Below the pieces are notes generated by a model, which saw only the letters and a list, made by a program, of their open reading frames with translations, was not told where the DNA came from and made no database searches. The translations under genes and the position numbers were made by a program. This document shows positions 2,624 through 13,456 of a DNA stretch of 64,000 nt, piece after piece (positions within the stretch are counted from its first letter, which is position 1; each line of letters opens with the position of its first letter). Source of the stretch: Sphingomonas asaccharolytica NBRC 15499 (lineage in GTDB: Bacteria > Pseudomonadota > Alphaproteobacteria > Sphingomonadales > Sphingomonadaceae); assembly GCF_001598355.1 (NCBI RefSeq), contig NZ_BCYU01000004.1:1-64000 (forward strand). Reading direction: 5' to 3'.

Positions 2624-3595
2624 ATGGGCGGCGTCGTAGCACTTACCGGAAATGTCGACCGCGTCAGGACGGCGATCGCGAATGCGAGCCGCTCGACCGG
2701 CATGGATTTCGACTATCTGCTCGGCCAGGCCCAGCTCGAAAGCGGGCTGAACCCGGGCGCGCGCGCCGGCACCTCGTCGGCCACCGGGCTCTACCAGTTC
2801 ATCGACCAATCCTGGCTCGGCATCGTCAAACAGCACGGCGCCGAGAACGGCCTGGGCTGGGCGTCGAACGCCATCACTCGCTCGGGCAATCGCTGGGTGG
2901 TGAGCGATCCGCAGATGAAGAGCGCGATCCTCAACCTGCGCAACAATCCCGAAGTCTCCGCAACGATGGCCGCCGAGTTCGCCTCGGACAACCAGGCATC
3001 GCTCGAAAGCTCGCTCGGTCGCGGCGCCACCGGCACCGACCTCTACATGGCACACTTCCTCGGCCTGGCCGGGGCCAAGTCGTTCCTGCAGACGATGCAG
3101 AGCAATCCCGGCGCGTCGGGCGCGGCGATGTTTCCGGCGGCCGCCCGCGCCAATCGCTCGATCTTCTACGACGCCGGCGGCAATGCCCGCAGCCTGGGCG
3201 ACATCTATCAACGTTTCGCCGCAAAGCTCGACAAGGGCGCGGCCAAGGTCGGCGCAACCAGCCTGGCCTCCGATGCGCTCGACGGATCGGGCGCGACCGC
3301 GTTCGCCAAGGCCTATGGCACCAGCGCGTTCGAGACCGCCAGGGCCAATTTCGCCTCGCTCGCCGCGCAGACCGGGCTCGACGCCAATCTTGGTGGGGCC
3401 GAGGTGATCCCGGGCAGCGGCGACACCGGCCGTACCGCCGCCGACTGGGCCAAGGCGGCGCTCGCCCGTGTCAATACCGGTCAGGCGGCCGGCGCGCTCG
3501 CGCCGGTGGCCAATACCGGTTCAGTCAACCTTCTCCGGCCGACGCCCGACAATGCGCGGCTGGCCTATCTGATGCTTGCGAGCCTGGGAGCGTAA
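2624..3595 (+). CDS. Flagellar-cluster lytic transglycosylase (SLT domain)
   Basis: Likely cleaves peptidoglycan to let the flagellar rod or hook cross the wall. The N-terminal SLT-type lysozyme fold carries the catalytic-Glu motif Q-L-E-S-G-L-N-P (Glu39), then the A-T-G-L-Y-Q-F-I-D-Q-S-W motif. The C-terminal part is Ala/Gly-rich and low-complexity. The 323-residue product has no clear signal peptide, consistent with export through the flagellar apparatus or an undetected signal. ATG 2624 is preferred over GTG 2588 because of the sigma-54 promoter at 2570. It is followed after 3 bases by flhA. Confidence 0.8.
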   Translation: MGGVVALTGNVDRVRTAIANASRSTGMDFDYLLGQAQLESGLNPGARAGTSSATGLYQFIDQSWLGIVKQHGAENGLGWASNAITRSGNRWVVSDPQMKSAILNLRNNPEVSATMAAEFASDNQASLESSLGRGATGTDLYMAHFLGLAGAKSFLQTMQSNPGASGAAMFPAAARANRSIFYDAGGNARSLGDIYQRFAAKLDKGAAKVGATSLASDALDGSGATAFAKAYGTSAFETARANFASLAAQTGLDANLGGAEVIPGSGDTGRTAADWAKAALARVNTGQAAGALAPVANTGSVNLLRPTPDNARLAYLMLASLGA

Positions 3596-3598
3596 CGC

Positions 3599-5674
3599 GT
3601 GCCGCCTGTCCTGAAGAATCTCCTCGCCGGCAACGCCCGCAACGCCGCCCTTCCGGGCGCGATCCTGCTGCTCGTCGTTTTGATGGTCGTGCCGATCCCG
3701 GCCGCCATGCTCGACATCTTCTTCGTCACCAACATCGCGATCAGCCTCGCGGTGCTGATGGTCGCGTTGAACGCGCAGAAGCCGCTCGATTTCTCCGCCT
3801 TTCCGACCGTCCTCCTCTTCGCCACTTTGTTCCGCCTCGGCCTCAACGTCGCCTCGACCCGCGTCGTATTGGTCCATGGCCATGAAGGCGAGAGCGCTGC
3901 CGGCCATGTCATCGAGGCGTTCGGATCGTTCCTGATCGGCGGCGATTACGTCGTCGGCATCTTCGTCTTCTCGATCCTGGTGATCATCAACCTGATCGTG
4001 GTGACCAAGGGCGCGGGGCGCGTGTCGGAAGTGTCGGCGCGCTTCACCCTCGACGCCTTGCCGGGCAAGCAGATGGCGATCGACGCCGATCTCAATGCTG
4101 GCCTGATCACGCCCGATGAAGCCAAGGCGCGCCGCATCGAAGTGTCGACCGAGGCCGATTTCTACGGATCGATGGACGGTTCGTCCAAGTTCGTGAAGGG
4201 CGACGCGGTCGCCGGCCTGCTGATCCTGTTCGCCAATATCATCGGCGGCCTGATCCTGGGCCCGGTCAGCCACGGCATGACCGTTGGCGCCGCCGCGCAT
4301 AACTATATCCTGCTGGCGATCGGCGACGCGCTGGTCGCGCAGCTGCCGTCGCTCATGCTCTCGATCGCCGCCGCCGCGATCGTCACTCGCGTCACCTCGA
4401 GCCAGGATCTCGCCGGCCAGATCGGTACCCAGTTCGGCTCGGCACGTACCTGGACCCCGGTCGCGGGCATCCTGGGGCTGCTCGGCGTGCTGCCGGGCAT
4501 GCCGCACCTCGTGCTGCTGGCCGCTGCGGGCATCGCTGGGTTCGCCGCATGGAAGCTGCGCCAGATCGCCCATCGCCCGCCGCCGCCCGCGCCCGCCGCG
4601 CCCGCGCCCGATCTGTCGAAGATCGGCTGGGACGAGGTCAGCGACGGCATGCAGATCCATCTCGACATCGGCTATGGCCTGGTGCCGCTGGTCGACGAGC
4701 GCCGCGGCGCGCCGCTGATGGGCCGCATCACCGGCGTCCGCCGCCAGCTCTCCAAGGACCTCGGTTTCGTCGTGCCGCAAGTGCGCGTCCGCGACGACAT
4801 CAACCTCGCGCCTTACACCTATCGCATCATCGTCGGCGGCGTCGTCATCGCCGAGGACCAGGCGTCGGCCGACGAGATGCTCGCGCTCGATACCGGCCAG
4901 GGCGTCGGCGAGCTGCGCGGCAAGAAGGCCAAGGACCCGACCTTCGGGCTCGACGCGACCTGGATCCAGCCGGGCGACGCCGATGCCGCGACCGGCCAGG
5001 GCTATCTGGTGGTCGACGCCGGCACCGTGGTCGCGACGCACCTCAACCATCAGCTCAGCCAGAATGCGTCCGACATGCTCGGCGCGGACGAGGTCCAGCA
5101 GCTGCTCGAGGGTCTGAAGGAGCGCAATCCGCAGCTGGTCGCCGCTTTGACCCCGGCGCCGTTGCCGCTGACCACGCTAACGCAAGTGCTCAAGGGTCTG
5201 CTCGCCGAGGGCATCAGCCTCAAGGAATTCCGCCGCATCGCCTCGGCCATCGCGGTCGCCGCGCAACGCACGGTCGACGCCGAAGAGATTATCGAGGCGA
5301 TCCGTCCCGATCTCGGCGGGCTGATCATCCAGAAATTGTGCGGCGTGCACGAGCCATTGCGCGTGATGACCCTGGAGGGGCAGCTCGAAGGGCTACTCGG
5401 CCAGGCGGTCCGCTCGGACCCGTCGCGCCGCCACACGATCGAACCCGATCTCGGCCGCCGTATCGTCGATGCGCTGACCCAAGCCGCGGCGCCGCTCGTC
5501 GCCGAAGCCAAGCCGTTCGCGCTCGTCGTCCAGCCCTCGATCCGTCTCGCGATCCGCAAGCTGGTCAAGACCTGCCTCCCCGACACTCCAGTGATGAGTT
5601 TCTTCGAAGTGCCTGAAGAGAAATCAGTCGAAGTCGTCGCCGTGATCGGCGCTCCCCAGGCGCTCGCGGCATGA
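3599..5674 (+). CDS. flhA: Flagellar type III export gate protein FlhA
   Basis: Inner-membrane core of the flagellar export gate. The N-terminal ~310 residues contain about eight membrane segments and the FHIPEP-family stretch with R-F-T-L-D-A-L-P-G-K-Q-M-A-I-D-A-D-L. The C-terminal ~370 residues form the cytoplasmic chaperone/substrate platform, after an Ala/Pro linker near 320-335. Length of 691 residues is normal. It begins with GTG three bases after the transglycosylase stop and overlaps fliA by four bases, so it is probably read from the sigma-54 promoter at 2570. Confidence 0.95.
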   Translation: MPPVLKNLLAGNARNAALPGAILLLVVLMVVPIPAAMLDIFFVTNIAISLAVLMVALNAQKPLDFSAFPTVLLFATLFRLGLNVASTRVVLVHGHEGESAAGHVIEAFGSFLIGGDYVVGIFVFSILVIINLIVVTKGAGRVSEVSARFTLDALPGKQMAIDADLNAGLITPDEAKARRIEVSTEADFYGSMDGSSKFVKGDAVAGLLILFANIIGGLILGPVSHGMTVGAAAHNYILLAIGDALVAQLPSLMLSIAAAAIVTRVTSSQDLAGQIGTQFGSARTWTPVAGILGLLGVLPGMPHLVLLAAAGIAGFAAWKLRQIAHRPPPPAPAAPAPDLSKIGWDEVSDGMQIHLDIGYGLVPLVDERRGAPLMGRITGVRRQLSKDLGFVVPQVRVRDDINLAPYTYRIIVGGVVIAEDQASADEMLALDTGQGVGELRGKKAKDPTFGLDATWIQPGDADAATGQGYLVVDAGTVVATHLNHQLSQNASDMLGADEVQQLLEGLKERNPQLVAALTPAPLPLTTLTQVLKGLLAEGISLKEFRRIASAIAVAAQRTVDAEEIIEAIRPDLGGLIIQKLCGVHEPLRVMTLEGQLEGLLGQAVRSDPSRRHTIEPDLGRRIVDALTQAAAPLVAEAKPFALVVQPSIRLAIRKLVKTCLPDTPVMSFFEVPEEKSVEVVAVIGAPQALAA

Positions 5675-6423
5675 GCGCGGAACCGATGATGGGCGCGTTC
5701 GCCAATGCGCAACCGGTCCCGGGGCCGCTGACCTATGGCCGCACCGGTGCCGATATCGACGCTTTGGTGCGCAAGCATTCGCCGCTCGTCCGTCGCATCG
5801 CCTGGCACGTCCATGGCAGTATTTCCGGCGTGTGCGAGGTCGAGGATCTGGTCCAGATCGGGCTGGTCGCCTTGGTCGAGGCGATCCACGGCTTCGAGGA
5901 TCGCGGCCAGGTGACGTTCGAACAATATCTCGCCACGCGCCTGCGCGGCGCGATGATCGATCAGCTCCGCCGCCAGGCGACCCTGACTCGTGGCGCTATG
6001 CGCCGGCGCAAGCAATATCAGGAGACGGTCGCCTCGCTGACCGTCGACCGCAAGCCGCCCGCCGAGGCCGATATCGCCGAGAAACTCGGCGTCAGCGTCG
6101 AGAAACTGCGCGCCGATTATTCGAGCGCGGAAGCGGTGCGGTTCGACTCGCTGGATGAAGTCTATACCGACGACGGTCCTTGGTTCATGTCCGACGAGCC
6201 CGACGCGTTCGAGCAACTCGCCGAGGCCGATCTGCGCGAGACATTGGTCGGCGCGATCGCCGCGTTGCCCGAGCGCGAGGCACAGGTGGTGCAGTTATAT
6301 TATGTCGAGGAACTCAACCTCGAGGAAATCGGGCATGTGCTCGGTGTCGGTGCGGCGCGGGTGTGCCAGATCAAGGCGTCGGCGCATGCGCGGTTGAAGA
6401 AAGTGCTGGCTAAGGCGGTTTGA
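5671..6423 (+). CDS. fliA: Flagellar sigma-28 factor FliA
   Basis: RNA polymerase sigma factor for late flagellar genes. In the 250-residue product, region 2 includes V-E-D-L-V-Q-I-G-L-V-A-L-V-E-A-I and the R-L-R-G-A-M-I-D-Q-L-R stretch. Region 3 is R-K-P-P-A-E-A-D-I-A-E-K-L-G. Region 4 is L-P-E-R-E-A-Q-V-V-Q-L-Y-Y followed by the helix-turn-helix L-E-E-I-G-H-V-L-G-V. It overlaps flhA (ATGA) and ends the flagellar run; its antagonist FlgM is encoded upstream. Confidence 0.93.
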   Translation: MSAEPMMGAFANAQPVPGPLTYGRTGADIDALVRKHSPLVRRIAWHVHGSISGVCEVEDLVQIGLVALVEAIHGFEDRGQVTFEQYLATRLRGAMIDQLRRQATLTRGAMRRRKQYQETVASLTVDRKPPAEADIAEKLGVSVEKLRADYSSAEAVRFDSLDEVYTDDGPWFMSDEPDAFEQLAEADLRETLVGAIAALPEREAQVVQLYYVEELNLEEIGHVLGVGAARVCQIKASAHARLKKVLAKAV

Positions 6424-6540: not shown

Positions 6541-6798
6541 ATGAGTCGTGCAAAGATCTGGCTGGCGACGTCGGTCGCGACCGCCGCCATTTTGTCATGC
6601 AGCGCGCTGGCGCAAGAGACTACGACTTATTCCTATGACGGGTTGGGCCGATTGAAGGGCTCGACGATCACTGGTGGGACCAACAACGGCCGCACAACCG
6701 GAACATGTTTCGACGCTGCTGGCAACCGCATGCGCTATGACGTGGCGACGACTTCCCCTGCCGCATGTCCGACGCCGACACCTACGCCCACTCCGTGA
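6541..6798 (+). CDS. Small secreted YD-repeat peptide
   Basis: The 85-residue secreted protein has a Sec signal peptide (about 1-24, S-C-S-A-L-A-Q). It carries one YD/RHS repeat motif (Y-S-Y-D-G-L-G-R-L), a second partial one (F-D-A-A-G-N-R-M-R-Y-D) and a Pro-Thr tail. GGGGAG lies about 7 bases before the ATG. It heads a co-directional set of two larger RHS proteins. Function is unknown; it may be a remnant or a small accessory of the RHS locus. Size and motifs make it too small for a complete RHS shell. Confidence 0.6.
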   Translation: MSRAKIWLATSVATAAILSCSALAQETTTYSYDGLGRLKGSTITGGTNNGRTTGTCFDAAGNRMRYDVATTSPAACPTPTPTPTP

Positions 6799-6847
6799 TT
6801 TGCATTCGAGAGGAATTGTGAATCAGCTGGGAGTTGGGGGCAAATCA

Positions 6848-8581
6848 ATGACGTTTTATGAGATTGGATCAATCGGGTTGGCCTTTGTCGCTAAGGCGCG
6901 GAGCTTGTTCGCGCTGGCGATAGCATTGCTGATTTTCTCCAGTGGGATAGCGCACGCGCAGCCGCTCACCCCACCCAAGTTTATGACGTTGAGTCCGACG
7001 GGCGTTGAACTGTTGACTGGTGTCTACACCATGTCGTCGACCGACCTTTCGATCGGATCGCTGACGCTTGAACGATCGTATTTGGGGTCCGATAGGCCGG
7101 GGAGCGGGGCCGGGATGTCCAGTGCCTATTTCGGCAATAGCTGGACGCATAATTTCGACATCTGGGCGCGGAATAATTTTTATAATGGGCAGGAATCGGC
7201 CGACGTCGTTATCGGCCGGTCGCCCTACAAATTCTCGGCCTTCGCCGCACACAACCCCTATCCCGATGGCGCCAGTTCCGGGACGACCCTGACGGAGGTC
7301 GCCGGCGCGATGATCTTCACCGACCGCGACGGCACGGTTTACCGGTTTCTCCCTACCGTCAACGGCTTTGCCCGGATTTCCACGGTCACCCATCCGGACG
7401 GCACGATTCTCACGTTCAGTTATGTATCCAATCTGCCGAAAACGATTGTCAGCAATCGCGGCTATGCCTTGGTATTCGATTATTCCTCGTCGCGCATCAC
7501 GACGGCATGCGGCTTCAATCTGGCAGTAACCTATGTCACAACTGCCACGACGTGCAGTTCGGCGACGCTCAAGACGAGCTATGGCTATACCGGTTCGAAC
7601 CTGACGTCAGTGACCGATGTGTCGAACAATGTCGCGCACTATTCTTACAACAGTGACAATTATCTGATCTGCCCCACCGACCCAGGCACGACGACCTGCA
7701 AATACACGATCACCATCTCGCCTAATGCCTGGATGACGAGGGTAACCGTCACCAAGCAGGTGGCAGCTGACGGTGCGGAATGGAATTTCGTGTGCAGTTG
7801 CGGCGACGAAGCGGCGGCCGATCCCGATAATCTCTCCACCGAAGAATATAGCACGATGACGGAACCCAATGGCGCCACCTCTTCGATGTGGTTCTCTCAC
7901 AGCGGTTACCCGAGCTATTACCAGAACGAAAACGGCAAGGAATATACTCCGTTCTATGCTAGCGGGGTGCCGCTTTCGATCACGTCCCCGGAAGGGAACC
8001 AGACGAATTTCAGCTACAACCCGGCGCTGATCGAGAGCAAGCGGACGTTCGTCGCCAAACCGGGCAGCGGGCTCGCCAATATCGAACAAAGCAGCAAGAC
8101 TTTTCCGACCTCTTGCACCAATCCGATCATCTGCAACCTGCCCTTGACGGTGACCGACGCAAGGGGCGCCGTGACGACCTATACGTACGATTCCACCCAT
8201 GGTGGCGTACTGACCGAAACTAAGCCGGCGGACAGCGCAGGGATCAACGCCGTGGTGCGGCACAGTTATGCACAGAAATACGCCTATATCAAAAACAGCG
8301 GAGGCGGATATTCGCCGGCGGCGACGCCGGTCTGGGTGTTGGCCGAGGACCGCACCTGCCGGACTACCGCGACCGTTGGCGGGGCGTGCGCGGGCGGCAG
8401 TTCAGACGAAGTGGTCACCACATATGATTACGGTCCAGCATCCGGCCCGAACAATCTGTTGTTGCGCGGCGTGGCGGCGACCGCAGACGGAGTCACCCGA
8501 CGAACCTGTTTCGGCTATGATTGGATGGGTAACAAGATCAGCGAGACCAAGCCGCGTGCCGGTCTGGCGGTGTGCTCGTGA
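6848..8581 (+). CDS. Secreted RHS/YD-repeat protein, N-terminal half of split RHS
   Basis: The 577-residue protein has a Sec signal peptide ending near A-H-A-Q. A DUF6531-like start follows (P-T-G-V-E-L-L-T-G-V-Y-T-M-S-S-T-D-L), then repeated strands such as S-Y-G-Y-T-G-S-N-L-T-S-V-T-D and T-Y-T-Y-D-S-T-H-G-G-V-L-T-E-T. These are the N-terminal plug and early YD repeats of RHS proteins. The RHS core and C-terminal tip are absent and occur instead in the next gene, which begins in a GTGA overlap. ATG 6848 is chosen for the GGGGG ribosome site and the following signal peptide. Confidence 0.75.
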   Translation: MTFYEIGSIGLAFVAKARSLFALAIALLIFSSGIAHAQPLTPPKFMTLSPTGVELLTGVYTMSSTDLSIGSLTLERSYLGSDRPGSGAGMSSAYFGNSWTHNFDIWARNNFYNGQESADVVIGRSPYKFSAFAAHNPYPDGASSGTTLTEVAGAMIFTDRDGTVYRFLPTVNGFARISTVTHPDGTILTFSYVSNLPKTIVSNRGYALVFDYSSSRITTACGFNLAVTYVTTATTCSSATLKTSYGYTGSNLTSVTDVSNNVAHYSYNSDNYLICPTDPGTTTCKYTITISPNAWMTRVTVTKQVAADGAEWNFVCSCGDEAAADPDNLSTEEYSTMTEPNGATSSMWFSHSGYPSYYQNENGKEYTPFYASGVPLSITSPEGNQTNFSYNPALIESKRTFVAKPGSGLANIEQSSKTFPTSCTNPIICNLPLTVTDARGAVTTYTYDSTHGGVLTETKPADSAGINAVVRHSYAQKYAYIKNSGGGYSPAATPVWVLAEDRTCRTTATVGGACAGGSSDEVVTTYDYGPASGPNNLLLRGVAATADGVTRRTCFGYDWMGNKISETKPRAGLAVCS

Positions 8582-11295
8582 GGCGCGCGATCAACTGGGT
8601 CGGCGCAACATGGCGCGCCGGGGCGCTGACCATCGCAGCGTTTGCCGCGATGCCTGCGACCGCACAATCCTCGTCCTCCGACTTCACCTATGCGACGCGC
8701 TACGACTTGGCGCGCCGTGTAGTGGGAACGATCGCGCCTGACCCCGACGGCGCCGGCGTAATCAAATTCGCGGCGACGCGCACGACATACGACGCAGCGG
8801 GTAACATCATCCGGGTCGAGAAGGGTGAGCTATCAGGCTGGCAGGACGAGACGATTGCGCCCGTTTCATGGAGTGGTTTCACGGTCTTCTCGAAGGTCGA
8901 GAGCACCTATGATGTCATGGACCGCAAGACGGTCGAGGCAAATTGGGGCTGGGACGCTTCGACTTCGGCCTGGATCGAAGCGAGCGTCACCCAATATAGC
9001 TATGACTCCGTGGGGCGGCTCGAATGCACCGCGCAGCGGATGAACCCGACCACCTGGGGGACATTGCCGGCCTCGGCCTGTACCTTGGCGACGACCAGCA
9101 GCACCTACGGCCCCGACCGCATCACCAGGAACGTCTACGACGCTGCCGGGCAAGTGTTGAAGGTGATCAAGGCCTATGGCCAGACGACGGCCAACGGCCT
9201 GCCGCAACTCCAACAGGATTACGTCACCGACACCTACACAGACAACGGCAAGCAGAAGACGCTGAAGGATGCCAATGGCAACCTGACCACCTACACTTAT
9301 GACGGGTTCGACCGGCTGGCCGCCTGGGCGTTCCCGTCGAAGACGGTGACGGGCAGTTCGGCGGCGTGCACGATCGGCACGATCGCCGAGGCGACCGATG
9401 GCTTCGGCAACACGGTGGCCGGTCCCTCGGAGACGCGCACTGCCGGCGATGATTGCGAGAAATACGCCTACGACCGCAACGGCAACCGCGCCAAGCTGAT
9501 GAAGCGCGACGGCAATATCATCCGCTATGGGTTCGACGCGCTCAACCGCGTGACCCATAAGGGCGGCACGGCGGTGGCCGACGTGGATTACACTTACGAC
9601 CTGACGGGCCATCAGCTGACCGCGACCTATTCGACCGGCGGCAAGGGAATCACCAACATCTATGACAGCTTCGGTGAGCTCAGCAGCACGACCAACAACA
9701 TGGGCACGACCGCCCGGACGCTCGGCTACACCTACGATGCAGATGGCAACCGGTCGCAGCTGACCTATCCCGACAGCTCATTCTTCACCTACGTTTATGA
9801 CGGGCTCGACCGGCTGACCACGATCAAGGAAGCCGGCACGACCGCGATCGTGTCGACCCTCTACAACCCGCAACAAACGGTCGCGAGCCAGACGCGCGGC
9901 GCGGTGACGACCGCCCTGGGCTACGACGCGGTATCGCGGCCGACGAATTGGGCGGACGATCTGGCGGGCACGACCAGCGATGTGACCAGCACATTCGCCT
10001 ACAACCCGGCCAGTCAAATCGTCACCAAGACGCGGTCGAACGATGCCTATCGGTTCACCGGCTATGTCAGCGTCAGCCGGCCTTATGCGGTCAACGGGCT
10101 CAACCAATATGCGACGGCGGGCTCGGCGAGCTTCACTTATGACGACAACGGCAATCTGACCGGCGACGGCAGCAACACCTATACCTACGACGTCGAAAAC
10201 CGGATGAAGACGGCCACGGTCGGCGGGGTGGCGGTGACGCTCAACTACGATCCGCTGGGCCGGTTGTGGCAGGTGGTGACGCCGAGCAATATGCTCGAAT
10301 GGACCTATGACGGCGACTCGCTGGTCATGGAGATGAACGGCGCCAATCCGTACAGGTACGTCCACGGCCCCGGCGACGACGATCCGATGATCCAGTATAA
10401 CGGTACTGGCTATGGTACGCGCTACAGCCTGGAGCCGGACTATCAGGGTTCGATCGTATCGCTGGCGGATGCGACCGGCGCCAAATACTGGATCAACGCT
10501 TTCGACGAATATGGAATTACGCCGACCAGCAATTACGGGCGGTTCCAATATACCGGGCAGGTGTGGCTGCCCGCGATCGGGCTCAATTACTACAAGGCCA
10601 GGATGTACTCGCCGACGCTGGGGCGGTTCATGCAGACCGATCCGATCGGGTATAAGGATCAGAATAACCTTTATGCTTATGTCGGGAATGATCCGATCGA
10701 TGGCAAAGATCCATCGGGCGAGTTGGCTGACGGATGCACTGGCACTCTTTTTTGTAGCGGCTCAGGAGAAGCGCTTTCCGCGAACGGCATTGGCAACTCT
10801 GGATATGGAGGAGGGCGCAACCCCACCGCTAATGCGATTGGTGATAAATTTAAAACACGACGTGGAGCCGCCAAAGACGCCGTTGGAAGCACTGTTAACA
10901 GGTCCATCCGCGCGAACAGAGAGTTTGGCGGTCGTATCAAAAAGGATTCTAAGGGCAGATATTACGCGACATTGGCGCCGAATGGTTCTGGCACTATGGT
11001 AACGCTGCCGCCAGTGGCATCTGATGACGTAGGCGACTGGCACGACCATGGTGACTGGTCGATGAAAGATGCAAGCGGTAACTTGATTAGAACCACGAAG
11101 GGCAACGACACGTTTAATAGTGGTGATTTCTCGGGTAGCCAGAGCCCAGCTTACGGCGATCGAGGCGGTATAACAAGCGACGCCGCTGCGGCAGCATTGC
11201 TTGGGAACTCCGACTACCGGGGTTACCTAGGAACGCCGGATAAAAACGTCCTTGAATACAATCCAGCAACTAATGCAACTATCAGAATAAAGTGA
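8578..11295 (+). CDS. RHS core protein with DUF4329-like C-terminal toxin tip
   Basis: The 905-residue secreted RHS protein begins at GTG 8578, overlapping the previous stop, with its own signal peptide (ends A-T-A-Q). About 20 YD repeats follow, then the RHS-associated core ending in D-P-I-G-Y-K-D-Q-N-N-L-Y-A-Y-V-G-N-D-P-I near residue 705. Beyond residue ~720 is a distinct, AT-richer tip of ~185 residues with N-R-E-F-G-G, W-H-D-H-G (His822, His824), S-G-D (848-850) and Y-L-G-T-P. This resembles DUF4329, thought to be a JAB/MPN-like metalloprotease toxin fold. Polymorphic-toxin architecture is clear; the toxic activity is inferred. Confidence 0.78.
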   Translation: MRRAINWVGATWRAGALTIAAFAAMPATAQSSSSDFTYATRYDLARRVVGTIAPDPDGAGVIKFAATRTTYDAAGNIIRVEKGELSGWQDETIAPVSWSGFTVFSKVESTYDVMDRKTVEANWGWDASTSAWIEASVTQYSYDSVGRLECTAQRMNPTTWGTLPASACTLATTSSTYGPDRITRNVYDAAGQVLKVIKAYGQTTANGLPQLQQDYVTDTYTDNGKQKTLKDANGNLTTYTYDGFDRLAAWAFPSKTVTGSSAACTIGTIAEATDGFGNTVAGPSETRTAGDDCEKYAYDRNGNRAKLMKRDGNIIRYGFDALNRVTHKGGTAVADVDYTYDLTGHQLTATYSTGGKGITNIYDSFGELSSTTNNMGTTARTLGYTYDADGNRSQLTYPDSSFFTYVYDGLDRLTTIKEAGTTAIVSTLYNPQQTVASQTRGAVTTALGYDAVSRPTNWADDLAGTTSDVTSTFAYNPASQIVTKTRSNDAYRFTGYVSVSRPYAVNGLNQYATAGSASFTYDDNGNLTGDGSNTYTYDVENRMKTATVGGVAVTLNYDPLGRLWQVVTPSNMLEWTYDGDSLVMEMNGANPYRYVHGPGDDDPMIQYNGTGYGTRYSLEPDYQGSIVSLADATGAKYWINAFDEYGITPTSNYGRFQYTGQVWLPAIGLNYYKARMYSPTLGRFMQTDPIGYKDQNNLYAYVGNDPIDGKDPSGELADGCTGTLFCSGSGEALSANGIGNSGYGGGRNPTANAIGDKFKTRRGAAKDAVGSTVNRSIRANREFGGRIKKDSKGRYYATLAPNGSGTMVTLPPVASDDVGDWHDHGDWSMKDASGNLIRTTKGNDTFNSGDFSGSQSPAYGDRGGITSDAAAAALLGNSDYRGYLGTPDKNVLEYNPATNATIRIK

Positions 11296-11303
11296 GGCTT
11301 ATC

Positions 11304-11636
11304 ATGGCAAAGAGCTGTATACCTTTACTAGCATTCTCGGCTTTTTTGTCAGTGAGCGCCACAGAACCTGTTTATGCAAGCGAAAATATGCAAATCCCAA
11401 TTAATCTCGGCCCGGCCCTGAGAAGTGCTTTAAATGATTTTTATGATGAAAAGATTGTCGATCGAAGTTGCTACACTATAGATATTGCTGATCTCGACGG
11501 ATCAATGCGCGTGATATTTCTAGGGAAGCCGAGCACTGAGGGCGCCGTTAGGGGACAGCCGGCCTCGTGCGGGCCGACTATCACATACATTGTTGATAAA
11601 ACGGGAAGCATCACTAAAAAAACGTATCTCCGTTGA
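11304..11636 (+). CDS. Candidate immunity protein of the RHS toxin
   Basis: The 110-residue protein has a signal peptide (about 1-25, ending near V-Y-A-S), so it is predicted periplasmic. It sits immediately after the RHS tip and shares its lower GC. An alternative GTG at 11292 overlaps the RHS stop. I do not recognise the family. Position after a toxin tip is the usual place of an immunity gene. The mature part contains two cysteines (D-R-S-C-Y and A-S-C-G), which could form a disulfide. The call is positional inference. Confidence 0.5.
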   Translation: MAKSCIPLLAFSAFLSVSATEPVYASENMQIPINLGPALRSALNDFYDEKIVDRSCYTIDIADLDGSMRVIFLGKPSTEGAVRGQPASCGPTITYIVDKTGSITKKTYLR

Positions 11637-11767: not shown

Positions 11768-11873
11768 GTGGCTCGTCTTCCTCGCCTCGTGTTGCCCGGC
11801 TATCCCTATCACGTGACCCTGCGCGGCAATCGCTGGCAGCAGGTGTTTTTCGAAAAGGGCGACTACGAGCCTA
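11768..11873 (+). pseudogene. Truncated REP-associated tyrosine transposase (RAYT)
   Basis: Starting at GTG 11768, about 35 codons encode A-R-L-P-R-L-V-L-P-G-Y-P-Y-H-V-T-L-R-G-N-R, the conserved N-terminus of Y1/REP-associated transposases. It includes the H-V-T-x-R-G-N-R core but lacks the HUH and Tyr region. The frame then runs into the 3' end of the opposing glucosidase gene, so the rest is deleted. The bases just upstream (11670-11700, G-A-A-T-T-A-C-G-G-T-G-A-C) may be a remnant of its flanking repeat. Confidence 0.7.
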
Positions 11874-13322
11874 ACTTGAGCTCTTGTCCGACGAGGCGGC
11901 GCGATCGGGGCCCGCGATCAGCTTGCGATACCAATGGTAGGACTCCTTCGGCGTCCGGCGTTGCGTGGCGTAATCGACGCGGACGAGACCGAAGCGGGGT
12001 CCATAGCCGTCGGCCCACTCGAAATTGTCGAGGATCGACCACACCAGGTACCCGCGCACATCGATGCCGGCATCCATCGCCTTCCTGACCGCGCGGATAT
12101 GGGCGTCGAGGAACGCGATCCGGTCGGTGTCATGCACGGCTCCCCGCGCTACGGTGTCGGTGAAGGCCGCACCGTTTTCAATGATGACGATCGGAGGCAA
12201 AGCGGAGCCGTAGCGATCGCGTAAGCCGAGCAGCATGTCGGTCATGCCTTGCGGGTCGACTGGCCAGCCCATCGCGGTTCGCGCGAATGTCGCCGGTGGC
12301 GGCGCTTCCTCGATCGGCTGGGCGCTGCCCGGCGGACTGACGCGCATGAAGTTGGTATTGTAATAATTGACGCCGAGAAAATCGAGCGGCTGGGCGATCG
12401 TCTTGAGATCGCCGTCCCGCACCGCCGTCGCGGTGAGCGCGTCCGGCAATTCCTCGGGGTAGCGACCGAGCAGCAGCGGATCGACGTGCAATCCCCAATA
12501 ATAGAGCGTCATTGCCTGCGCCGCCGGTTCGTCCCGCGCCGGATCGGCCGGCCGTACCATCGCCAAATTCTGGGCGATGCCGATCTGCGCCTTGCGCTTC
12601 GCCGTCGCGCGGATCGCCTGAACGGCTTTGCCGTGCGATAACAGCAAGTGATGCGCGACCGGAAACGATTGCTGCATATCGAGCTTCAGTCCCGGCGCGT
12701 TGACGCCGAGAACGTGCCCGAGGACGTGGTGCATGAAGGTCTCGTTATGCGTGATCCAGCGCGGCACGCGGTCGCCGAGATGCTCCGCCATGATGTGCGC
12801 ATAGTCGGCGAACCGGTCGCAGGTGTCGCGGTTCTGCCAGCCGCCGGCATCCTGCAGCTTTTGCGGCAAGTCCCAGTGAAACAGGGTCGGCATCGGCGCG
12901 ACGCCCTTGGCGAGCAATTCGTCGGTCAGCCGCCAATAGAAATCGAGCCCCTTGGGGTTGGCCGCGCCGCGGCCCTCCGCCTGGATCCGCGGCCAGGCGA
13001 TCGAGAAACGATAGGTGCGCGCGCCGAGCTGGCTGATCAGCCCCACGTCCTCGCGATACCGATGATAGTGATCGCACGCGATGTCGCCATTGGCGTTACC
13101 CGCGACATTGCCGGGTTGGTGGCAGAACGTGTCCCAAATCGATGTGCCGCGACCGTCCTCGTTTACCGCGCCTTCGATCTGATAGGAGGAGGCTGCCACC
13201 CCCCACAGAAAATCGGGCGGGAAGGCCGGCATGGCGGGTTGTGCCCCTGGTTTCGACGCCGCGATCAGCCCAGGCGCCGCAATCGTCGCGCCCGCAGCCA
13301 GTACGAATTCACGCCTTCGCAT
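11871..13322 (-). CDS. Exported GH1 family beta-glucosidase
   Basis: The 483-residue glycoside hydrolase probably cleaves terminal beta-glucosides outside the cytoplasm. The N-terminus M-R-R-R-E-F-V-L-A-A-G-A looks like a Tat signal. GH1 marks are F-L-W-G-V-A-A-S-S-Y-Q-I-E-G at the start of the barrel, the acid/base Glu in T-H-N-E-T (usually N-E-P) and the nucleophile in I-I-E-N-G. The start at 13322 follows a GGGAGAGG ribosome site; an upstream in-frame start would bury the signal. The last codons abut the truncated transposase. Confidence 0.88.
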   Translation of the reverse strand: MRRREFVLAAGATIAAPGLIAASKPGAQPAMPAFPPDFLWGVAASSYQIEGAVNEDGRGTSIWDTFCHQPGNVAGNANGDIACDHYHRYREDVGLISQLGARTYRFSIAWPRIQAEGRGAANPKGLDFYWRLTDELLAKGVAPMPTLFHWDLPQKLQDAGGWQNRDTCDRFADYAHIMAEHLGDRVPRWITHNETFMHHVLGHVLGVNAPGLKLDMQQSFPVAHHLLLSHGKAVQAIRATAKRKAQIGIAQNLAMVRPADPARDEPAAQAMTLYYWGLHVDPLLLGRYPEELPDALTATAVRDGDLKTIAQPLDFLGVNYYNTNFMRVSPPGSAQPIEEAPPPATFARTAMGWPVDPQGMTDMLLGLRDRYGSALPPIVIIENGAAFTDTVARGAVHDTDRIAFLDAHIRAVRKAMDAGIDVRGYLVWSILDNFEWADGYGPRFGLVRVDYATQRRTPKESYHWYRKLIAGPDRAASSDKSSS

Positions 13323-13456
13323 GCTCGCCTCTCCCGCCTTCCCATTGTCTCGGCCGCGACGGCACAAGCAGGGTAGCGAACGAGATCAAAGAGCGCGAAG
13401 AAACAATAGTCAACGCTATATTTTTCGGGTGAGATCACCGCATTGCACTCATAATC

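Follow-up and report, generated by a model that had tools for sequence, protein, structure and literature searches.

A predicted polymorphic RHS toxin of Sphingomonas with its shell encoded by two overlapping genes, each carrying a predicted Sec-type signal

Overview

The window is the whole 64,000-nucleotide stretch of Sphingomonas asaccharolytica NBRC 15499 DNA that was analyzed. It contains a locus that probably encodes a polymorphic RHS toxin whose shell is specified by two overlapping genes, here called N and C, instead of one. The two products would likely be exported separately via their predicted Sec signals and come together outside the cytoplasm as a single shell that encloses a C-terminal toxin. 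The split layout is neither chance nor a sequencing error, because the same layout is observed at 33 of 33 readable junctions of a genome scan.

The initial annotation regarded RHS shells as normally one chain. This stands as the usual description, a single folded chain, and it is not always so, as TcB and TcC of the Tc toxins are described as forming a two-chain RHS shell (PMC11067744, PMC8765631). The window holds a second break, in a different place from that of the Tc toxins. With it come another predicted export signal and a pair of cysteines tied to the break, and the same genome also has uncut paralogues. No report of this arrangement was found in the open-licence literature, judged by titles and the beginnings of abstracts.

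Organization of the locus

Four genes follow each other on the + strand in the order Y, N, C, and a small gene (Table 1). N and C are separate genes that share a GTGA, as initially annotated. The N-termini of Y, N, and C all show the Sec pattern of a charged start, a hydrophobic core, and an AxA-type site before Q, and the earlier claim that each of the three has its own Sec-type signal agrees with this pattern. A longer N frame is available from GTG 6674. The domains of N are RHS repeats (PF05593) and a sub-threshold DUF6531; PF05593 is matched in C as well, and TIGR01643 is a further repeat match. In profile searches, Y scores 22.4 bits for YD_repeat (cut-off 15.8) and 21.8 bits for Pfam RHS_repeat, just below the cut-off of 22. 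The nearest tree neighbors of the window's N and C are from Sphingomonas.

Flagellar-looking genes directly precede the RHS genes (window 3599-6423). From their translations, we take 3599-5674 to be FlhA-like and 5671-6423 to be a FliA-like sigma factor. A glycosyl hydrolase family 1 protein is encoded on the opposite strand at 11871-13367 (-). The short ORF at 11768-12088 has no Pfam match; its start seems to us to resemble a REP-associated transposase, a likeness that is then lost.

Table 1. Features of the RHS locus, in window coordinates.
Feature	Position	Strand	Start, evidence, or remark
Y, secreted mini-protein (predicted): signal peptide, one YD unit, and PTP-rich stub, 85 aa	6541..6798	+	
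N-half of predicted RHS shell, 577 aa including signal peptide, ending Cys-Ser-stop	6848..8581	+	ATG 6848
Predicted Sec signal peptide of N, cleavage AHA/Q	6848..6958	+	Sequence; three-rule test
Cys554 codon of N, predicted partner in end staple	8507..8509	+	113/113 split N rows (alignment A3), 0/25 fused rows
Cys576 codon, second-last residue of N	8573..8575	+	113/113 split N rows (alignment A3), 0/25 fused rows
GTGA stop/start overlap of N with C	8578..8581	+	Sequence; overlapping NTGA start available in 41/55 scored split loci
C-half of predicted RHS shell with core and tip, 905 aa including signal peptide	8578..11295	+	GTG 8578; alternative start GTG 8572
Predicted Sec signal peptide of C, residues 1-29, cleavage ATA/Q	8578..8664	+	Sequence; three-rule test; Q30 invariant column
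Rhs-associated core domain, C residues 643-714	10504..10719	+	TIGR03696, 70.3 bits (cut-off 32.5)
Tip, DUF4329, C residues 764-901	10867..11280	+	PF14220, 40.7 bits (cut-off 28.6)
Small secreted protein (predicted), candidate immunity protein by position only	11292..11636	+	GTG 11292 (GTGA shared with C, 11292-11295) or ATG 11304

Predicted export signals of the two halves

Protein searches with N and C used the best 120 matches each. Matches had to measure 0.55-1.75 times the query in length, so most fused forms escape the N search. The N alignment (A3) is made up of the window and 112 of the best 120 N matches; the window copy, shorter matches, and a partial protein termed P0076 were left out. 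The C alignment (A4) is made up of the window and 76 of the best 120 C matches.

Signal peptides were called with a three-rule test of our own, not with SignalP. The test asks for a hydrophobic core, a net positive start, and small residues at -3/-1. It is passed by 72 of the 77 C-parts and 96 of the 113 N-parts. Among the best 120 C matches, fragments and fused forms included, 106 pass. As background, the test is passed by 207 of 15,037 starts internal to these proteins and, among mechanical ORFs in the window, by 18 of 148. The residue at the predicted mature start of C, Q30, does not vary in the 77-row C alignment. N and C are each predicted to carry a Sec-type signal.

Shell fold and single-chain relatives

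When the predicted models of the two halves are compared with single Rhs shells, N aligns with one stretch and C with the stretch that follows, e.g., residues 26-469 and 424-1075 of 8qja, and both models have the shell fold of an RHS/YD-shell polymorphic toxin. By template ranges, N accounts for ~40% of the shell. In each of the four template entries that were compared, 45 to 102 residues are matched by N and C alike, and the position of the seam in the models is uncertain. From these models, N and C are predicted to fold into successive sections of a single Rhs shell.

Single-chain relatives contain both parts. The source genome encodes four single-chain RHS paralogues of 1407-1444 aa, in which N-type and then C-type parts are found in the same order. 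Their N-termini are signal-like by eye, and they have no break, no inner signal, and no end-cysteine pair. In P0076, which comes from a Sphingomonadales assembly, an N of the split type, with its two end cysteines in place, runs directly into C-type sequence, giving a natural single chain without an inner signal. Together, P0076 and the fused paralogues make the strongest case for assigning the two halves to one shell. Fused frames of this kind had been named initially as an argument against a genuine split. They do exist, the four paralogues among them, yet the N tree separates split and fused forms cleanly.

Site of the break

Fused chains have a strand of the type '..YDxxGN..', a loop that is typically DGPLxGxxDT, and then '..YRYD..'. 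In place of the loop, split chains have an N tail of the type ISETxPRAGLxxCx-stop, a signal peptide, and mature C from Q. Because the fused loop is replaced by N tail and signal in the split proteins, the cut is placed, as read from these motifs, in the turn or loop between two YD strands.

The N tail carries two cysteines, Cys554 and Cys576, that are present in every split row of the N alignment and absent from the fused rows (Table 1). Among 59 locus rows labeled split, the aligned column holds Cys554 in 53 and Cys576 in 56; the rows without an aligned Cys are three mislabeled or cut rows and three in which the first Cys is shifted. A different pair, Cys423/429, is found in all 25 fused rows and in 56 of the 59 rows labeled split. 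Since this pair is common to both forms, the extra pair would most simply pin the new free end, presumably as a Cys554-Cys576 disulfide. Column C514 differs as well (36 of 59 split rows, 0 of 25 fused rows); the fused rows that were inspected have a Cys nearby, and the difference is probably a misalignment. Given this column, the Cys554/Cys576 pair is not the only difference in the split/fused alignment.

The end of N also bears on whether N stays in the particle. In principle, N could be a transient assembly factor that aids C folding or tip loading and is then shed, in which case the finished particle would not be a closed shell of two parts. A partial precedent is the T6SS effector RhsA, which is described as cleaved near its N-terminus, though its plug stays on the cocoon (PMC8765631). 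N, however, is no plug, given its large share of the shell by template ranges, and its end at the cut carries two conserved cysteines. Shedding of N is therefore judged improbable.

Conservation of the junction

The initial annotation proposed a search for the same split in related genomes, and the split was found. When genome contigs were scanned with the N alignment, 33 loci were obtained, of which 32 have readable junctions; in L045, the N-part is truncated by the contig end. One locus carries two N-C pairs, giving 33 junctions in total. At each of these, N ends in Cys-X-stop and a separate C frame is next. In L038 and L040, the C frame is interrupted again further downstream.

Adding the loci of further relatives gives 60 junctions, and 55 were scored after removal of five duplicates, with the near-identical pairs L032/L033 and L039/L092 still among them. 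The second-last Cys is present in 52 of the 55, and the C start passes the signal-peptide rule in 51. An overlapping NTGA start is absent in 14. The C start fails the rule in L020, L022, and L055, and the Cys is third from the N end instead of second-last in L074 and L106. L062, also among the 55, is a fused-type RHS gene with a frame break and has no end Cys, inner signal, or NTGA overlap. Two loci outside the 55 were read by eye. In L088, N and C overlap at ATGA, and a signal-like C start is visible shortly before the stretch ends; the C start after N is signal-like in L084 as well.

L032 and L033 have an identical junction sequence and N ends that are >90% identical, and their assemblies are labeled Caulobacteraceae and Gammaproteobacteria. 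One of the two labels is probably wrong.

These junctions bear on two explanations in which the split is not a true gene boundary. The first is that the split represents a broken fused gene, a pseudogene, or a sequencing error. Fused relatives do exist, and L062 is an example of one with a frame break. L062 looks different, however, as it lacks the end Cys and the inner signal, while the scan junctions all share one layout and the split-type N rows group together. This explanation is ruled out for practical purposes. The second, a programmed frameshift or stop read-through that joins both frames into one chain, could make use of the overlapping start available in 41 of the 55 loci. The relative frame of N and C varies, however, with 46, 8, and 1 loci in the three classes (the same-frame junction is L096), which speaks against a programmed frameshift. 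The joined product would also place a hydrophobic signal between two shell strands, and joining of the frames is very unlikely. The recurring layout also disposes of the frameshift that the initial annotation wished to see excluded by resequencing.

Phylogeny and distribution

A quick N tree places 49 split and 25 fused rows on two sides of one branch (SH-aLRT 99), and a single origin of split-type N is the simplest reading of this tree. In the C tree, the split/fused labels require five changes, and a single group of split C halves is rejected (AU p = 0.003). The N data reject the five-row C group that contains the window (AU p = 3e-5). The trees left out twenty loci, which are near-copies or partial, and L070 has no N row. 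Since the N and C trees conflict and the C labels need five changes, C cores, as judged from the trees, have moved between N partners and probably also between split and fused genes. The halves are not strictly co-evolving partners.

The same conflict can be taken to mean that neither half is tied to a partner. In such a case, N and C would be separate secreted proteins that share RHS ancestry. N would act alone, for instance in adhesion or by helping export, and C would close its own shell. The lack of sorting of C cores by split fits this explanation. Against it, N aligns with the beginning of solved Rhs shells and C further along, the fused paralogues and P0076 hold both parts in one chain, and C comes after N at all 33 readable junctions. 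Two separate proteins are thus an unlikely explanation, and one shell made of both halves is preferred.

In an order-level sample, matches are found in 52 of 396 genomes. There are 87 matches, with only the three best candidates per genome scored, and 84 were compared after three that fall short of the compared region were left out. Among the 84, the split type is found in 25 genomes, the fused type in 39, and both in 12. The 33 matches that reach the model end lie in frames of 213-798 aa, and 48 of the 51 that stop short lie in frames of at least 1000 aa. In a class-level sample of 385 genomes, the split is found in the source genome only; the sole other match (G536) stops short, inside a 2197-aa frame. 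In the genome scan, the split is also carried by Caulobacter, Azospirillum, Nitrospirillum, and Porticoccaceae records.

Tip, core motif, and downstream gene

The C-terminal tip is variable among close homologues, as in polymorphic toxins. Tip families in 35 C-parts are DUF4329 (3), HNH (2), and SAA, Ntox37, DUF6765, and Peptidase_M91 (1 each), and RHS_repeat is the only other Pfam family in these parts. One C-part, P0207 by its Pfam list, matches serum amyloid A (PF00277, E 3.8e-27), an odd toxin tip. Second, partial C-type frames are observed downstream of the split pair in L031 (7191-8783), L034 (10811-12262), and L044 (10706-12100) and resemble the orphan tips known from rhs loci.

DUF4329 is also known as Tox-JAB-2, and toxin JAB domains have been suggested as possible nucleases (Zhang et al., PMC3482391). 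The residues expected of Tox-JAB-2 are E, H[ST]H, S, and D. The tip matches the family profile, but the window has HDH where P0192 and P0216 have HTH. The tip of C is presumably toxic. A self-cleavage motif, PxxxxDPxGL, is described for the Rhs core (PMC8765631). The core of the window has PIDGKDPSGE, with every fixed letter except the last. Self-cleavage of the window protein is doubtful because the motif ends in DPSGE and not DPxGL.

The small gene downstream of C is a candidate immunity gene by its position. Its product has no homologue at E 0.001, and a comparison with 100 relatives gives a single weak match, at E 9.6e-4, which lies within a frame of 3439 aa. As for type II secretion as the exit route, the sole GspD-family match scores 140 bits against a cut-off of 351.

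The putative accessory protein Y

A Y homologue (tblastn E up to 0.01) lies upstream in 33 of 42 split RHS loci and in 10 of 12 fused ones. This count covers loci with at least 1200 nt of upstream sequence, duplicates removed, and misses any Y that overlaps the N frame (e.g., L025). Y-type matches also lie just upstream of three of the four fused paralogues in the source genome. Since relatives of Y also lie ahead of fused RHS genes and can have adhesin-type domains, Y is not exclusive to the split, and the initial view of Y as a part of it was dropped. As a marker of the split, the Cys pair in Y holds only partly, being present in 15 of 33 split and 1 of 10 fused cases.

Six longer Y relatives, chosen for their length (L015, L016, L019, L020, L031, and L036), each carry Big_9, cadherin-like, or Calx-beta domains. 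Y of the window is a stub that ends in a proline-threonine stretch. From its sequence, Y looks like a docking or tethering accessory that is not specific to the split. In L084, a Y-type mini-gene with a signal, one YD unit, and two Cys lies between the N stop (3183) and the C frame (3431-4678), giving the order N-Y-C. A further Y copy is located near a contig end of the source genome (contig C80, 16-216, -), where another RHS locus may be cut off.

Proposed assembly

In the preferred explanation, stop/start coupling would supply N and C in step, and each half would fold in the oxidizing periplasm after Sec export. A Cys554-Cys576 disulfide would pin the free N end where the chain formerly ran on. 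N and C would then join edge to edge, with the DUF4329 tip kept inside until release. Y may serve as an accessory docking or tethering piece.

A broader version of this proposal is more tentative and is offered as a possibility. It describes a modular toxin particle put together outside the cytoplasm. Its parts would be exported separately and be exchangeable: two half-shells, held together by an end-stapled hairpin, and Y. The YD unit of Y would dock on the shell, and a Calx-beta, Ig-like, or cadherin-like arm, where present, would tether it to a surface. The split would have arisen once, and would let N halves, C halves, and tips be reshuffled independently.

The locus and its uncut paralogues offer a natural comparison of how a shell closes, where it closes (the periplasm rather than the cytoplasm), and whether cutting permits part swaps. 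If the halves meet outside the cytoplasm, shell assembly becomes directly testable.

Comparison with known systems

Tc (ABC) toxins resemble the locus in having a two-chain, two-gene RHS shell around variable C-terminal cargo (PMC11067744, PMC8765631). They differ in the site of the break, as the TcB/TcC break lies ~105-185 residues further on than the N/C break, an approximate figure from predicted-model ranges. They also differ in the SpvB domain of TcB, which has 0 matches in the source genome (PF03534; 1 of 14 control genomes matched). By these two features, membership in the Tc toxins is ruled out.

Rhs effectors of the T6SS (RhsA, Tse5, Tre23, RhsP, and Tse15) are among the best structural matches of both halves and likewise have a core domain and a variable tip. 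In contrast to N and C, they are made as one chain and exported by the T6SS (PMC8765631). The sheath protein VipA (PF05591), the T6SS family covered by the search, has 0 matches in the source genome, an assembly of 191 contigs that is 100% complete, and 1 of 14 control genomes matched. N opens with a signal-like segment, and no Pfam match to a PAAR or VgrG N-terminal domain is found on it at E 0.1. With no match to VipA and none to a PAAR/VgrG domain, membership in the T6SS effectors is rejected, and the locus is a Sec-signaled RHS system in a genome without a detected T6SS sheath gene.

Bacterial teneurin-like proteins also have YD shells and, in Gram-negatives, are described as predicted Sec targets of the SPII type (PMC13018210). 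The teneurin-like structure 9ifo matches both halves, but one solved chain spans both ranges. The Gram-negative teneurin-like proteins differ from N and C in that the signals described for them are of the lipoprotein type (PMC13018210).
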